From positions 1,674,001 to 1,738,000 of the forward strand of contig NZ_VFNC01000001.1 in assembly GCF_006715395.1 (NCBI RefSeq): a stretch of DNA of 64,000 nt, read 5' to 3'. The DNA is from Streptomyces sp. SLBN-31. Lineage in GTDB: Bacteria; Actinomycetota; Actinomycetes; Streptomycetales; Streptomycetaceae. Below the pieces are notes generated by a model, which had not been told where the DNA came from, made no database searches, and saw only the letters and a list, made by a program, of their open reading frames with translations. Below, piece by piece: positions 7,171 to 56,402 of this stretch. Every line of letters starts with the position of its first letter. Position 1 is the stretch's first letter. The position numbers and the translations under genes were made by a program.

Positions 7171-8193
7171 ATGCGCTACATCATCATCGGAGCGGGCGCC
7201 GTCGGCGGGGCGATCGGCGGGCGGCTCGCGGGGGCCGGGCACGAGGTCGTCGCGGTTGCCCGCGGCGCGCAACTCGCGGCGCTGCGGGAGAGCGGGCTGC
7301 GGCTGACCGTACCGGACGGGCAGCACACCTACCGGCTGCCGGCCGTCGAAGGCCCGGGCGAGCTGGGGGAGTTGCGGGCCGACGACGTCCTCGTCCTCGC
7401 CGTCAAGACGCAGGACACGGTGGCCGCCCTGCGGGAGTGGGGGCCCGCGCCGGTCGACGGCGGCGGTACGGCCGCCGAGCGGCTGCCGCTGCTGTGCGCC
7501 CAGAACGGCGTGGAGGGACAGCGGCTCGCCCTGCGCGTCTTCCGGCACGTGTACGGCGTCTGCGTGTGGCTGCCCGCGACCTTCGTCGAACCGGGCCGCG
7601 TCTCCGCAGCCGGCGCCCCGCTCACCGGCATCCTGCACCTGGGCCGGTATCCCCACGGCACCGACGAGACCGCCCGGCGCATCGCCGCGGACCTGGACAA
7701 GACGCGGTTCCTCGAGGCGCCGGTGGTGCCGGACGTGTCGCGCTGGCAGTACGCCAAGCTGCTGTCCAACCTGGCCAACGCGCTGGAGGCGGTCTCCTCG
7801 GCCGCCGGTGACAAGGCGGGGGAGCTGTACCGGCGAGTGCGGGCCGAGGGCGAGGCCGTGCTCGACGCCGCCGGGATCGCGTACGCGAGCGTCGAGGAGC
7901 AGCGGGCCACGCGCGGCCACAAGGTCGACCTGGTCCCGCTCGACGGCGCGCCGCGCGGCGGCGGCTCCTCCTGGCAGTCGCTCAGCCGGGGCACCGGCAC
8001 CATCGAGGCCGACTACCTCAACGGCGAGATCGCGCTGCTGGGCCGGTTGCACGGCGTACCGACCCCGCTCAACGACCTCCTCCAGCGGCTCGCCAACACC
8101 TTCGCACGCGAGCACCGGGCGGCCGGCTCGATGCCGGTCGAGGAACTGGTCCGGCTCGCCGACGAGGCTGTCGCGTTTGTTCAAGAGTCCTGA
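7171..8193 (+). CDS. ketopantoate reductase-like (ApbA/PanE family) oxidoreductase
   Basis: A 340-residue NADPH-dependent oxidoreductase of the 2-dehydropantoate 2-reductase family. The Rossmann glycine motif GAGAVGGAIGGRL is within the first 20 residues. Family landmarks include VKTQDT, where the lysine contacts the cofactor, CAQNGVEGQR, and a C-terminal helical domain with the SNLANAL segment. The ATG at 7171 puts the glycine motif at the normal distance from the N-terminus; a GTG six codons upstream is less likely. Many Streptomyces members are paralogues rather than the pantothenate enzyme, and no pantothenate genes are nearby, so I do not assign panE. Confidence 0.85.
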   Translation: MRYIIIGAGAVGGAIGGRLAGAGHEVVAVARGAQLAALRESGLRLTVPDGQHTYRLPAVEGPGELGELRADDVLVLAVKTQDTVAALREWGPAPVDGGGTAAERLPLLCAQNGVEGQRLALRVFRHVYGVCVWLPATFVEPGRVSAAGAPLTGILHLGRYPHGTDETARRIAADLDKTRFLEAPVVPDVSRWQYAKLLSNLANALEAVSSAAGDKAGELYRRVRAEGEAVLDAAGIAYASVEEQRATRGHKVDLVPLDGAPRGGGSSWQSLSRGTGTIEADYLNGEIALLGRLHGVPTPLNDLLQRLANTFAREHRAAGSMPVEELVRLADEAVAFVQES

Positions 8194-11998: not shown

Positions 11999-13327
11999 TC
12001 AGAAGTCCCAGCCGTCGTCCTCGGACTCGTCCTTGACGGGCTCCGGGGACGCGAACGACTCGCCGACCATGCCCGCGGTGAGCGTGGTGCCGTCGCTGGG
12101 GTCGATCAGGATGAACGAACCCGTGCGCCGGGAGTCCGCGTAGGAGTCCACCGGCAGCGGCTCCGCGGTACGGATCTTCACGCGGCCGATGTCGTTGGCG
12201 ACGAGCTGCCCGGGGTGCGGGTGCAGGGACAGGTCGTCGAGCGTGAGCCGGGACGGGATGTCCTTGACGATCGCCTTCACCGTGCGGGTGCCGTGCTTGA
12301 GCAGGACACGGTGGCCGACGGTCAGCGCGGCGTCGGCGACATGGCAGACGGTCGCCTCGATGTCCTGCGTGGTCGCCGGGGCGTCCTTGCTGGGCACGAT
12401 CAGGTCACCGCGCGAGATGTCGATGTCGTCCTCAAGCAGGAGCGTCACCGACTGCGTCGTCCAGGCGACGTCGACCGGCTCACCGAGCAGGTCGATGCCG
12501 GCGATCCGAGAGGCGCGGCCGGACGGCAGGACCGTCACCGCCTCGCCCACGTGGAACGAACCGGCGGCGATCTGCCCGGCGTAGCCGCGGTAGTCGGGGT
12601 GCTCGGCCGTCTGCGGGCGGATCACGTACTGCACGGGGAGGCGGGCGTGGCAGTGGCTCAGGTCGTGGGTGACCGGGACCGTCTCCAGGTGCTCCAGGAC
12701 CGTCGGGCCGCCGTACCAGTCCATGTTCGCGGACGGCTCCACCACGTTGTCACCGGCGAGCGCGGAGATCGGGATCGCGGTGACCTCGGGCACGCCCAGT
12801 TCGAGGGCGTACGCCGTGAACTCCTCGGCGATCGCCGCGAAGACGGACTCCTGGTAGTCGACGAGGTCCATCTTGTTGACGGCGAGGACCACGTGCGGGA
12901 CCCGCAGCAGGGCCGCGATCGCCGCGTGGCGGCGGGTCTGCTCCACGACGCCGTTGCGGGCGTCGACCAGGATCACCGTCAGCTCGGCCCTGGAGGCACC
13001 CGTCACCATGTTGCGGGTGTACTGCACGTGGCCGGGGGTGTCGGCGAGGATGAACCGCCGCCTCGGCGTGGCGAAGTAACGGTACGCCACGTCGATGGTG
13101 ATGCCCTGCTCGCGCTCGGCCCGCAGACCGTCGGTGAGCAGCGCGAGGTCGGGGGCGTCCTGGCCGCGGCTCGCGGAGGCGCGCTCGACGGCCTCCAGCT
13201 GGTCGACGAGGACCGACTTGGAGTCGTGCAACAGCCTTCCCACCAGAGTGGACTTGCCGTCGTCGACGGAGCCCGCCGTCGCGAAACGCAGAAGGGTGGT
13301 CTCGGAGATTTCCGTGGTCGTGCTCAT
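11999..13327 (-). CDS. cysN: sulfate adenylyltransferase subunit 1 (GTPase subunit CysN)
   Basis: A 442-residue GTPase subunit of ATP sulfurylase, which together with CysD makes adenosine 5'-phosphosulfate (APS) from sulfate and ATP. The translation-factor-type G domain has G1 GSVDDGKST (19-27), G3 DTPGH (96-100) and G4 NKMD (151-154), followed by beta-barrel domains. There is no fused APS kinase domain; that activity is the separate cysC product. The start lies two bases after the cysD stop, so the subunits are made together. Confidence 0.96.
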   Translation of the reverse strand: MSTTTEISETTLLRFATAGSVDDGKSTLVGRLLHDSKSVLVDQLEAVERASASRGQDAPDLALLTDGLRAEREQGITIDVAYRYFATPRRRFILADTPGHVQYTRNMVTGASRAELTVILVDARNGVVEQTRRHAAIAALLRVPHVVLAVNKMDLVDYQESVFAAIAEEFTAYALELGVPEVTAIPISALAGDNVVEPSANMDWYGGPTVLEHLETVPVTHDLSHCHARLPVQYVIRPQTAEHPDYRGYAGQIAAGSFHVGEAVTVLPSGRASRIAGIDLLGEPVDVAWTTQSVTLLLEDDIDISRGDLIVPSKDAPATTQDIEATVCHVADAALTVGHRVLLKHGTRTVKAIVKDIPSRLTLDDLSLHPHPGQLVANDIGRVKIRTAEPLPVDSYADSRRTGSFILIDPSDGTTLTAGMVGESFASPEPVKDESEDDGWDF

Positions 13328-53179: not shown

Positions 53180-54523
53180 ATGGGCAGCCGTACCGCACTG
53201 GTCGAGGATCTGATGGAGCGGTTTCCGCAGGTACCGCGGGAAGCCGTCTTCAAAGAGGACCTGCTGCGTGGTGGTGTGGCCTTCGACCCCTCCGCGCTGA
53301 GCGACAACGAGGGCGGCGAGGTCAAGCCGAAGTCGTACTTCATCTTCTCCTTCGACCACGGGACCCTGCCCGAGCTCGGCGAGGCCGCCCTGCGCCGGCC
53401 CCCGGAGGAGATCATCCTCACCGGCGGCCCCTACGACCTGCGCCGCACCGTCGTCTCCGTGCGCGTGAACCCGTCCTCGCCGTACCGCGTCGCCGCGAAC
53501 GACGAAGGAGTGCTCGGCCTCTACCTCGACGGCCGGCGCATCGCCGACGTCGGCGTGCCGCCCATGCCCGAGTACTACCGGCACACCCTGTCCAACGGGA
53601 AGTCGGTCATGGAGGTCGCCCCGACCATCCAGTGGGGCTACCTGATCTACCTCACCGTCTTCCGCGTCTGCCAGTACTTCGGCGCCAAGGAGGAGTGCCA
53701 GTACTGCGACATCAACCACAACTGGCGCCAGCACAAGGCGGCCGGGCGCCCGTACACGGGTGTGAAGGACGTCGAGGAGGTGCTGGAGGCCCTCGAGATC
53801 ATCGACCGGTACGACACAGCCAAGGCCTCCACCGCCTACACGCTCACCGGCGGCGCGATCACCAAGACGGTCTCCGGGCGGGACGAGGCCGACTTCTACG
53901 GCCACTACGCCAAGGCCATCGAGGAGCGCTTCCCGGGCCGCTGGATCGGCAAGGTCGTCGCGCAGGCGCTGCCCAAGGACGACGTGCAGCGGTTCAAGGA
54001 CTACGGCGTGCAGATCTACCACCCCAACTACGAGGTGTGGGACGAGTACCTGTTCAAGATGTACTGCCCGGGCAAGGAGCGGTACGTCGGCCGGGACGAG
54101 TGGCACAAGCGCATCCTGGACTCGGCGGACGTCTTCGGCGCGCGCAACGTCATCCCCAACTTCGTCGCGGGCGTGGAGATGGCCGAGCCCTTCGGCTTCA
54201 AGACGGTCGACGAGGCCATCGCCTCGACCACCGAGGGTCTGCGCTTCTTCATGTCGAACGGCATCACGCCCCGCTTCACCACCTGGTGCCCCGAGCCCAC
54301 GACGCCGCTCGGCAAGGCCAACCCGCAGGGCGCCCCGCTGGAGTACCACATCCGGCTGCTCCAGGCCTATCGCCAGACCATGGAGGACTTCGGTCTGTCC
54401 TCGCCCCCCGGTTACGGCCCGCCCGGCCCCGGCCGCGCCGTCTTCTCCGTCAGCTCCTTCATGGACAGCCTTCCGGCGCGGGAGACGGAGGGCGAGAGTG
54501 CGCAGGAGACGGCGGAGGTGTGA
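53180..54523 (+). CDS. radical SAM protein with non-canonical CX8CX2C motif
   Basis: A 447-residue radical SAM enzyme. The cluster cysteines are Cys164, Cys173 and Cys176 (FRVC, then EECQYC), spacing CX8CX2C instead of CX3CX2C. TLTGGAITKTVSG fits the glycine-rich SAM-binding strand, and WCPEPTTPLGKANPQGAPLEYHI is a later conserved block. An N-terminal domain of about 150 residues precedes the barrel, and no SPASM or B12 domain is visible. GGAGGAGAG precedes the ATG. No substrate peptide or partner enzyme is adjacent. The reaction is unknown. Confidence 0.85.
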   Translation: MGSRTALVEDLMERFPQVPREAVFKEDLLRGGVAFDPSALSDNEGGEVKPKSYFIFSFDHGTLPELGEAALRRPPEEIILTGGPYDLRRTVVSVRVNPSSPYRVAANDEGVLGLYLDGRRIADVGVPPMPEYYRHTLSNGKSVMEVAPTIQWGYLIYLTVFRVCQYFGAKEECQYCDINHNWRQHKAAGRPYTGVKDVEEVLEALEIIDRYDTAKASTAYTLTGGAITKTVSGRDEADFYGHYAKAIEERFPGRWIGKVVAQALPKDDVQRFKDYGVQIYHPNYEVWDEYLFKMYCPGKERYVGRDEWHKRILDSADVFGARNVIPNFVAGVEMAEPFGFKTVDEAIASTTEGLRFFMSNGITPRFTTWCPEPTTPLGKANPQGAPLEYHIRLLQAYRQTMEDFGLSSPPGYGPPGPGRAVFSVSSFMDSLPARETEGESAQETAEV

Positions 54524-54617
54524 GCGACCTCTGTGCACGGTGAGTCGAAGCGTGGTCTCCTTGCGTACATGAGGCCGGAGTTGTGGCCCGGCGGCGGTTC
54601 CACAGGGGTCTGTCAGG

Positions 54618-54645
54618 ACAACTGAACACAGCGCTTGTCAGTTGT
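54618..54645. promoter_or_regulatory. inverted repeat before the cellulose-binding regulator gene
   Basis: ACAACTGA (54618-54625) and TCAGTTGT (54638-54645) are exact complements separated by 12 bases, about 95 bp upstream of the gene. GGTTCCACA at 54596-54604 also recurs twice downstream of the gene. Operator or terminator of the radical SAM gene; not decided. Confidence 0.4.
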
Positions 54646-54740
54646 GAGAAAAACGTGAAAGGCTCCTGCCCTGCCGCGAGGTTCCCCCCAACTCCTTTGC
54701 CGTCATGGTGAGTTGACCTCGCTTTCAATGCAGGAGACCC

Positions 54741-56231
54741 ATGCCCGACCTGCCGACCCCGAAGGACGCCGCCGAGGCCGCGCTGTTCTCCGAGTGCTGG
54801 GACGCGGTGCTTTCCTACGCCGACCTGTGCACCGCCGGCGCCACCGCGGCCACGCAACTCGCCTCCGAGGCGTTCGCGCTCGGTATACGCGAGGTCCGCG
54901 CCACCGAGACCGGACCCGTCGCCCGAAGCACCGGCCGCCGCTCACCCCGACTCCCCATGATCCCGCTGCTGTTGACCGCCGTGCGCAGCACGGCGGCCGA
55001 CTGGGAGGAGGCCGGACAGGGCGACGACCTCGACCCCGACCTGCGCCTGTGGCTCAACTCCGAGAAGGCCACGCGCTACACCGGCCCGCCGCTGCAACGC
55101 CCGCTCGCCCTGCGCGCCCTGCGCGACCTGCAGGACGCGGACGCGACACTGCTGTGGCTCGCCGAGGTGGAGGCGCTGCCGTACTCCGTGGTGGCCCGCA
55201 GGCTCGGCCTCGACCCGGCGCTCGTCGGCGAGGAACTCACCGAGGTGCGCCGCCTGTTCCGCGACCGCTGCCACCGCGCCCACCTCGACATGCCGCTGGA
55301 CGCGAACTGCCGCAGCTACGCCCGCCTCCTCGACGCGGTCACCCGCTCGCCCGGCGCCGACATCCCCGCCGACCTCTCGCGCCACCTCGCCACCTGCGTG
55401 GAGTGCGCCGAGGCCGCCGCCTGTCTGCGCTCGCACGGCGGCGGACTTCCCACGGCCCTCGCCGGCGGCGTGATCGGCTGGGGCGGCCTCGCCTACCTCG
55501 AACGCCGCAGGCGGGCCGCCGAGGTGCGGCTCGGCGCCGGGCGCCCCGACCCGGCCGAGAGCGAGCACGGCGAGCCCAGGTCCGGCGCGGACCGGGCGCG
55601 CACCGTGCGCAACGGCCTCCTCGTCGCCGCCGTCCTGGTCTCGCTGCTCGCGCTGGCCGTGTCCCTGATGCCGTTCGGCGGCGCGAACGGCGACATCACG
55701 GCGGGCGACACCCCGTCCGACAGCAGCCCCGTGGCCGCCCCCCGGCCCTCCCCGCCGCCCGTCACCTCCTCCCCGAGCGGGTCCTCCCGGTCCCCGTCCC
55801 CGACCACGACCGTCTCCGGGACGAGGACAGGCGACGACAAGAAGCCCGACCCCGAACCCCAGGGCACCTCGTCGTCCGCCGCGGGTGGCGGCGGTGCCAC
55901 GGTGAAGGAGGCGGCCACCTGCACGGTCGGCTACGACCTGGTCAACGAGTGGCCCGACGGCTTCCAGGCCACCGTCTCCGTCACCACGACGAAGGCCCTG
56001 ACCAACTGGAGCGTCGGCTGGTCCTTCGAGGACGGCCAGCAGGTCGGCCAGATGTGGGACGCGAGCGTCGCCCAGACCGGCTCCCGGGTCACTGCCACCG
56101 CCGCCGACTACAACAAGGCCGTCCCCGCGCACGGCACGCTCTCCTTCGGTTTCCTCGCCTCCTGGAAGACCAAGAACTCGCCGCCCCACGACTTCACGCT
56201 CAACGGGCGGCCCTGCGAGAAAACCGGTTGA
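54741..56231 (+). CDS. putative transmembrane cellulose sensor: sigma-like and anti-sigma zinc-finger domains fused to extracellular CBM2
   Basis: A 496-residue protein with an unusual domain order. Residues 15-55 (YADLCTAGATAATQLASEAF) and 120-180 (RDLQDADATLLWLAEVEALP, then VVARRLGLDPALVGEELTEV) resemble sigma regions 2 and 4. Residues 190-222 form an anti-sigma zinc site, Cys190, His215-X3-Cys219-X2-Cys222 (RHLATCVEC). One transmembrane helix is at about 289-311, then a Ser/Pro/Thr linker. Residues 392-496 are a CBM2-type cellulose-binding domain with Trp404, Trp423, Trp427, Trp439 and Trp475 and a Cys394/Cys492 pair. The layout suggests a receptor that senses cellulose outside and acts on transcription inside. 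GGAG precedes the ATG. The domain reading is mine and needs a profile search. Confidence 0.75.
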   Translation: MPDLPTPKDAAEAALFSECWDAVLSYADLCTAGATAATQLASEAFALGIREVRATETGPVARSTGRRSPRLPMIPLLLTAVRSTAADWEEAGQGDDLDPDLRLWLNSEKATRYTGPPLQRPLALRALRDLQDADATLLWLAEVEALPYSVVARRLGLDPALVGEELTEVRRLFRDRCHRAHLDMPLDANCRSYARLLDAVTRSPGADIPADLSRHLATCVECAEAAACLRSHGGGLPTALAGGVIGWGGLAYLERRRRAAEVRLGAGRPDPAESEHGEPRSGADRARTVRNGLLVAAVLVSLLALAVSLMPFGGANGDITAGDTPSDSSPVAAPRPSPPPVTSSPSGSSRSPSPTTTVSGTRTGDDKKPDPEPQGTSSSAAGGGGATVKEAATCTVGYDLVNEWPDGFQATVSVTTTKALTNWSVGWSFEDGQQVGQMWDASVAQTGSRVTATAADYNKAVPAHGTLSFGFLASWKTKNSPPHDFTLNGRPCEKTG

Positions 56232-56333: not shown

Positions 56334-56402
56334 ATGGCTGTCTTTGCGACGAGCGCTGCCCGCATCCAGATCATCAAGTCCACCTCCGTGGCCGCCGGCT
56401 GA
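56334..56402 (+). CDS. 22-residue small ORF upstream of rsgA
   Basis: ATG with GAGGAGG about eight bases upstream opens a 22-codon frame (MAVFATSAARI, then QIIKSTSVAAG) ending 45 bp before the rsgA start. The ribosome site is one of the best in the window, which argues for translation. The peptide is not a known toxin or RiPP precursor that I recognise. It could be a leader peptide, a small functional peptide, or a translation enhancer for rsgA. Confidence 0.45.
   Translation: MAVFATSAARIQIIKSTSVAAG

Follow-up and report, generated by a model that had tools for sequence, protein, structure and literature searches.

A candidate cellulose receptor of Streptomyces that carries a degenerate sigma factor homologue and a zinc anti-sigma domain on one chain

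A gene in the 64,000-nucleotide stretch of Streptomyces sp. SLBN-31 DNA analysed here (the window, to which all coordinates refer) encodes a protein of 496 aa (54741..56231, + strand, ATG start), which consists of a pseudo-sigma part, a zinc anti-sigma (ZAS) domain, a transmembrane (TM) helix, a linker and a CBM2 domain. The reading that we favour, with a probability of roughly 0.5, is that this protein is a cellulose-binding receptor derived from an ECF52 sigma factor, whose folded, zinc-clamped pseudo-sigma would signal by partner exchange or release and not by reading promoters. The first-pass annotation had proposed a fusion of sensing and transcription control in one polypeptide, and all five parts do indeed reside on a single chain. 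The fusion itself, however, is not new, since the succession of sigma factor, zinc finger, TM segment, Pro-rich linker and carbohydrate-binding module is known for ECF52 and ECF53 proteins, as two reports describe for ECF52 (SCO4117), which has been studied by experiment (PMC5826349, PMC8999054). What is new here is that none of 21 members of the receptor family matches the Pfam profile Sigma70_r2, and that contact positions which are invariant in ECF52 are mostly lost or acidic.

The cytoplasmic half begins with a degenerate sigma2-like domain (residues 8-105; 54762..55055) and a sigma4-like domain with a degenerate recognition helix (residues 118-184; 55092..55292), both delimited by ECF52 homology, an AlphaFold2 model and residue comparison. 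These are followed by the ZAS-type domain with its conserved following helices (residues 185-268; 55293..55544), a TM helix at about residues 291-310 (55611..55670), a poorly conserved, Ser/Pro/Thr-rich extracellular linker at about residues 313-391 (55677..55913) and the CBM2 domain (residues 392-493; 55914..56219), all on the + strand. The single TM helix, placed by hydropathy, corresponds to the best 19-residue window at residue 292 (mean 2.66), and in 81/81 orthologues hydrophobicity peaks in a window that begins at 287-305 and has a mean >1.6; both the helix and the linker named in the annotation are thus borne out. Profile-profile comparison and structure modelling together establish that residues 8-265 are a homologue of the sigma2-sigma4-zinc part of ECF52: the two families, aligned separately, match in hhalign with a probability of 99.1% and E 6e-19, and residues 1-270 match the ECF52-like protein of SLBN-31 (L019) at E 6.1e-15. 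The AlphaFold2 model of residues 1-270 has a pLDDT of 92.5 and a pTM of 0.89, and ECF sigma chains predominate among its top VIA rows. It deviates by an rmsd of 12.7-14.2 A from four anti-sigma-bound chains (1or7, 6in7, 8z6g, 6dxo) and by 22-29 A from RNAP-bound ECF chains. The earlier proposal of sigma-like helices therefore stands as a statement on homology and fold, but it finds no echo in Pfam: no sigma or zf-HC2 match above threshold falls in the N-terminal half, which, taken literally, is the outcome that the annotation had named as its own refutation, and CBM2 is the only domain of the receptor to exceed its cut-off.

The open reading frame is a real gene that is kept across Streptomyces. 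A database search returned 850 proteins resembling the receptor at E <=0.001 (7990 candidates scored); the 120 matches listed share 69-96% identity with it at a query coverage of 99-100%. A genome scan across bacteria and archaea led to 283 relatives, of which 80, all Streptomyces by title, were kept and form the orthologue set together with the window gene (n=81). The start M-x-DLPTP, with ATG at the same place, recurs in 78/80 extracted orthologue loci. Within the order, the gene occurs in 20/60 genomes (E 4.5e-93 or better), in single copy each: in SLBN-31, in 19/44 other Streptomyces genomes and in 0/15 genomes of other families. The wider family defined by the N-terminal module, with members unsorted by type, is represented in 56/60 genomes. 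Median dN/dS was calculated per domain over 900 random orthologue pairs, with dS taken from the entire gene. It amounts to 0.16 in the ZAS domain and following helices, 0.28 in the sigma4-like, 0.33 in the sigma2-like and 0.47 in the CBM2 domain, so that the sigma-like and zinc parts change more slowly than CBM2; the TM stretch reaches 0.76 and the linker 1.31, a value that comes from an unreliable alignment. The cytoplasmic fold and its zinc site are under purifying selection, and the gene is not dead.

The putative zinc ligands of the receptor, C190, H215, C219 and C222, at exactly the positions annotated at first, are unchanged in 81/81 orthologues and in 70/70 diverse aligned relatives. 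Their spacing is C-x24-H-x3-C-x2-C in 80/81 orthologues, with x25 in the remaining one; the ECF52 rows, whose ligands occupy homologous positions, have x25 at the first gap in 15/15 cases. The ZAS domain and the helices after it (residues 233-268) are the best conserved receptor part, with mean column identities of 0.90 and 0.96, respectively, and the lowest dN/dS. The region matches the anti-sigma factors RslA and ChrR at E 0.007-0.009. The Pfam profile zf-HC2 matches 14/15 ECF52 rows and, at E up to 1, none of 21 receptor-family members.

ECF52 proteins (SCO4117 in S. coelicolor, L019 in SLBN-31) and the receptor share the order of their parts, homology over residues 8-265, a TM helix, a Pro-rich linker and a C-terminal carbohydrate-binding domain. 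They differ in the latter, which is NPCBM in 13/15 ECF52 rows and CBM2 in the receptor, and in the state of the sigma part: ECF52 proteins keep the contact residues and usually match the sigma and zf-HC2 profiles, whereas the receptor has lost contacts and yields none of these matches above cut-off. In numbers, Sigma70_r2 matches 15/15 ECF52 rows at E up to 0.01, 12/39 other paralogues and, at E up to 1, 0/21 receptor-family members; the receptor gene is also absent from the 81 places in the SLBN-31 genome that match this profile. Sigma70_r4_2 matches 12/15 ECF52 rows at E up to 0.01, with L019 itself below cut-off (20.8 bits); it finds 3/21 receptor-family members (best E 0.075), and its match to the receptor is sub-threshold (12.4 bits against a cut-off of 25.7, E 0.13). 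Because no sigma factor is recognisable by the Pfam test, the receptor is not classed as an ECF52 sigma factor.

The decay can be followed at individual residues, at positions which we take to be core- and DNA-contact sites and which were picked after viewing the alignment. Two reference sets were used: 15 ECF52 rows, hand-picked from the search list, and a small control of SLBN-31 sigma factors. For the latter, 30 loci supplied 48 candidate frames, among them wrong ones; 14 could be aligned, of which 7 rows span sigma2 and up to 13 span sigma4. Position 39 is D in 15/15 ECF52 and 7/7 control rows and Q in 88% of the 81 orthologues. Position 168, R in 15/15 ECF52 rows and in 92% of 13 control rows, is Q in 85% or E in 14% of orthologues, and positions 164 and 165 are acidic in 89% and 98% of them; the recognition helix of the SLBN-31 receptor carries E164, E165 and E168, where most orthologues have Q168. 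Positions 93/94 are basic in 15/15 ECF52 rows, and position 94, R in ECF52, is G in all 81 orthologues. However, R occurs at 93 and at 94 in only 43% each of the 7 canonical SLBN-31 rows, so the pair is an ECF52 trait and its loss alone says little. On average, the recognition helix has a net charge of -0.36 in orthologues (n=81), +2.33 in ECF52 (n=15) and +4.08 in SLBN-31 sigma factors (n=13), and that of regions 2.3-2.4 is +0.46 (n=81), +4.73 (n=15) and +4.86 (n=7), respectively; over the whole sigma4 helix-turn-helix (residues 147-174) the values are +0.70, +1.47 and +3.54, with a small gap to ECF52. At sites presumed to contact core and DNA, residues retained in ECF52 have thus disappeared from the sigma part. 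Two contact residues remain: E at position 43 in 99% of orthologues, as in all ECF52 rows, and R170 in 98%; partial sigma activity is therefore still possible.

Judged from these residues, the loss of contacts argues against the receptor acting as a sigma factor on promoters, and the control of transcription by the receptor chain itself, as first annotated, does not sit well with positions that are fixed in 15/15 ECF52 rows and mostly lost or acidic here. The closest competing explanation, which we consider rather doubtful, is that the protein is a true membrane-tethered sigma factor of the ECF52 kind, in which cellulose would trigger proteolysis or opening and release an active sigma factor with altered promoter specificity and its own regulon. 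It is favoured by the end-to-end homology and identical layout, by purifying selection on the sigma-like part, by the retention of E43 and R170, and by the reported effect of SCO4117 on transcription and development (PMC5826349). D39 and R168 are lost, however, positions 164/165 are acidic and no sigma profile matches above cut-off. The upstream DNA bears on the same question: about 120 bp before the start (54621..54740, + strand; footprint of 79 sequences) are strongly conserved in 79 loci, nearly base for base in places. This region is probably the promoter and leader of the receptor gene, and it could be an autoregulated promoter, which would favour a true sigma factor. Yet the exact two-part pattern derived from it, tried in this exact form only, occurs once in the SLBN-31 genome. 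An Rfam search of 54400-54900 returned no match.

The genes around the receptor do not include a partner sigma factor, in agreement with the first-pass annotation: the flanks are formed by a radical-SAM gene and rsgA. The former, encoding a variant radical-SAM protein (NF045502; 53180..54523, + strand), is a constant upstream neighbour. It is the nearest upstream gene among nine neighbour genes queried in 80/80 receptor loci, at a distance of 192-623 bp in 77 loci and of 1.06-1.58 kb in 3, and it adjoins the receptor gene in 19/19 sampled genomes. With 39/60 genomes of the order, it is more widely spread than the receptor. Downstream, rsgA lies inside the fetched flank in 58/80 loci. In a genome that lacks the receptor gene (L222), the radical-SAM gene and rsgA directly adjoin, as expected if the receptor gene is a clean presence/absence unit. 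A micro-ORF of 22 aa (MAVFATSAARIQIIKSTSVAAG; 56334-56402, + strand) with a strong AGGAGG Shine-Dalgarno sequence was observed 46 bp before rsgA. Its pattern recurs in 26/59 rsgA-bearing sequences (the window, L222 and 57 fetched loci), in each case 35-134 bp ahead of rsgA, and it resembles an rsgA leader peptide. One locus (L081) contains two copies (7591-7668 and 13239-13307 in the numbering of that locus), and rsgA was not found in this locus.

Where the decay began can be approached with a quick IQ-TREE of 70 N-termini, comprising the window and 69/73 relatives; L114, L151, L153 and L154 were left out of the alignment for over-long matched stretches, and an earlier step had removed L146, which duplicates L125, as well as a partial frame of L124. 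All four sigma traits are intact in 21 rows: the 15 of ECF52, four that belong to a different family of the order and two more from Streptomyces. One ECF52 row (L170) falls apart from the other 14. The receptor belongs to a clade of 46 rows (SH-aLRT 99), lectin-type receptors included, of which 35 are scored as lost, 11 as partial and none as intact; nested within it, on a stem of 1.06, is the CBM2 branch with its 19 rows (support 100). Trait changes on the tree amount to 9 for the three-state labelling and to 3 for intact versus the rest. In the simplest reading of this tree, a single onset of decay would have preceded the parting of the lectin and CBM2 branches.

SLBN-31 itself encodes Ricin B paralogues, for example L002, L005 and L009, of the same degenerate clade, with 33-36% identity to the receptor; they share the N-terminal module and layout and end in a ricin-type C-terminus instead of CBM2. 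In most lectin rows E43, present in the CBM2 receptor, is gone as well: L002 and L005 have M-x-A, L009 has Q-x-Q. A search of mostly open literature found no paper on these lectin-type paralogues. A broader proposal, which we advance tentatively, would be that Streptomyces made a whole family of pseudo-sigma receptors out of an autoinhibited one-component sigma factor: core and promoter contacts would have been lost where one clade begins, the zinc-clamped sigma/ZAS pair would then have served as a general signalling module of the cytoplasm, joined to ricin or CBM2 sensors, and signals would pass by partner exchange with other sigma and anti-sigma proteins. As separate observations, L002 and L005 lie ~20 kb apart in SLBN-31, and two N-terminal-module paralogues are spaced ~11-20 kb in SLBN-31 and several other sampled genomes, a pairing that looks conserved; L009 is located directly 3' of a gene resembling a SigB/SigF-type sigma factor (340-aa frame with an adjoining Sigma70_r2 place); and a further N-terminal-module paralogue (L003), whose frame meets a TAG after the TM region, may be defective in SLBN-31.

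Among the effectors described for contractile injection systems (CIS) are TM proteins that end in a ricin domain (PMC10066040). A corresponding role of the lectin paralogues as effectors of the Sco4257/4258 type was rejected, with no sheath match in SLBN-31 at E 1e-5. In 9 other genomes, the surroundings of the sheath genes (17 stretches, some ending early at contig ends) give a best E of 0.095 with the receptor-family profile, and four ricin proteins found there, presumably those of the Sco4257/4258 type, start with a different, unrelated-looking N-terminus. ORF starts between L002 and L005, judged by eye, are unlike CIS genes, and CisA is likewise a different protein (PMC12237407).

The extracellular sensor is well defined. 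Pfam PF00553 (CBM_2) matches residues 394-492 at E 1.5e-25 (89.9 bits against a cut-off of 24), which bears out the CBM2 domain with conserved Trp residues and a Cys pair that had been annotated: Cys394/Cys492 and Trp404/423/427/439 are invariant in the 81 orthologues, and Trp475 is present in 80/81. The closest solved structure is 6qfs_A, an exoglucanase/xylanase CBM (E 5.8e-19), which we take to be the Cex CBM. W404, W439 and Y457, likewise invariant in the 81 orthologues, align with the W/W/W surface aromatics of Cex CBM2, presumably W17/W54/W72 with their cellulose-binding role. With the aromatics of the binding face kept, cellulose is a plausible ligand of the receptor. Streptomyces genomes with the receptor gene also contain more other CBM2 matches (median 10, n=19) than those without it (median 2, n=25; Mann-Whitney p 1.2e-4, which ignores the kinship of the genomes), and the medians are again 10 and 2 in genomes >=7.5 Mb (18 and 14 genomes).

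A different ligand, which would be compatible with any account of the cytoplasmic part, could be a glycan of the producer itself. Streptomycetes make a β-glucan of the CslA/GlxA type, and this polymer or chitin might be sensed during growth or development. Solved structures matched by the CBM2 profile include modules of the chitinase type (ChiC E 2.6e-12), the Pfam-scanned neighbours (PNPOx-like, radical SAM, RsgA) include no cellulase, and CebR-like operators with <=3 mismatches are not above chance in the 64-kb window (4 matches, 7.7 expected), none of them directly upstream of the receptor. The related SCO4117 reportedly controls development (PMC5826349). However, co-occurrence with many CBM2 genes points to the use of plant polymers, and we regard an own-glycan ligand as unlikely. 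Still more improbable is a mere attachment protein, in which CBM2 would tie hyphae to cellulose or to their own β-glucan with the cytoplasmic domain as a non-signalling anchor: the intact binding face, the eroded sigma contacts and the larger number of CBM2 matches in receptor-bearing genomes (kinship ignored) would suit it, but the ZAS domain and following helices are the best conserved part, and an anchor needs no invariant zinc ligands.

In the favoured reading, a single-pass membrane receptor would have arisen from an ECF52-type one-component sigma factor. Outside the cell, CBM2 would bind cellulose or a cellulose-like glucan via W404/W439/Y457, while inside the pseudo-sigma and ZAS would make a closed module. 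For ECF52/ECF53 fusions, activation by proteolysis or conformational change has been proposed (PMC5826349, PMC8999054, PMC10766802); likewise, the module might be opened or freed once the ligand is bound, perhaps together with a regulated cut close to the TM helix. We infer that the steps beyond ligand binding and the closed sigma-ZAS module would proceed by protein-protein exchange: the freed ZAS might capture a sigma factor in trans or, alternatively, the pseudo-sigma might titrate another anti-sigma factor.

Two known systems offer functional parallels. RsgI of clostridia, to which the receptor had been likened, resembles it in having an extracellular CBM, one TM helix and a cytoplasmic anti-sigma domain, but has a separate sigma partner, SigI, and a different anti-sigma domain; the comparison concerns the way of working only. 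The N-terminus of the receptor is sigma-ZAS, and the RsgI Pfam domain does not match it at E up to 1. PhyR of alphaproteobacteria, which is not known to possess a ZAS, TM helix or CBM, fuses a receiver domain, for which no Pfam match was found in the receptor at E up to 1, to a sigma-like domain, and again only the way of working is compared. This sigma-like domain reportedly acts on an anti-sigma factor instead of on promoters (PMC5830050), which is the mode of action suggested above for titration. A search covering mostly open literature found no paper on a CBM2 or degenerate-sigma version of an ECF52-type fusion.

If the favoured reading is correct, a transcription factor would have been turned into a receptor module with its fold and inhibitor retained. 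The perception of cellulose by streptomycetes is usually explained only by the uptake of soluble cello-oligosaccharides and CebR, and the receptor is a candidate for the perception of insoluble cellulose at the cell surface. For multidomain proteins annotated as sigma-like, these observations suggest that contact residues should be checked before such proteins are counted as sigma factors.
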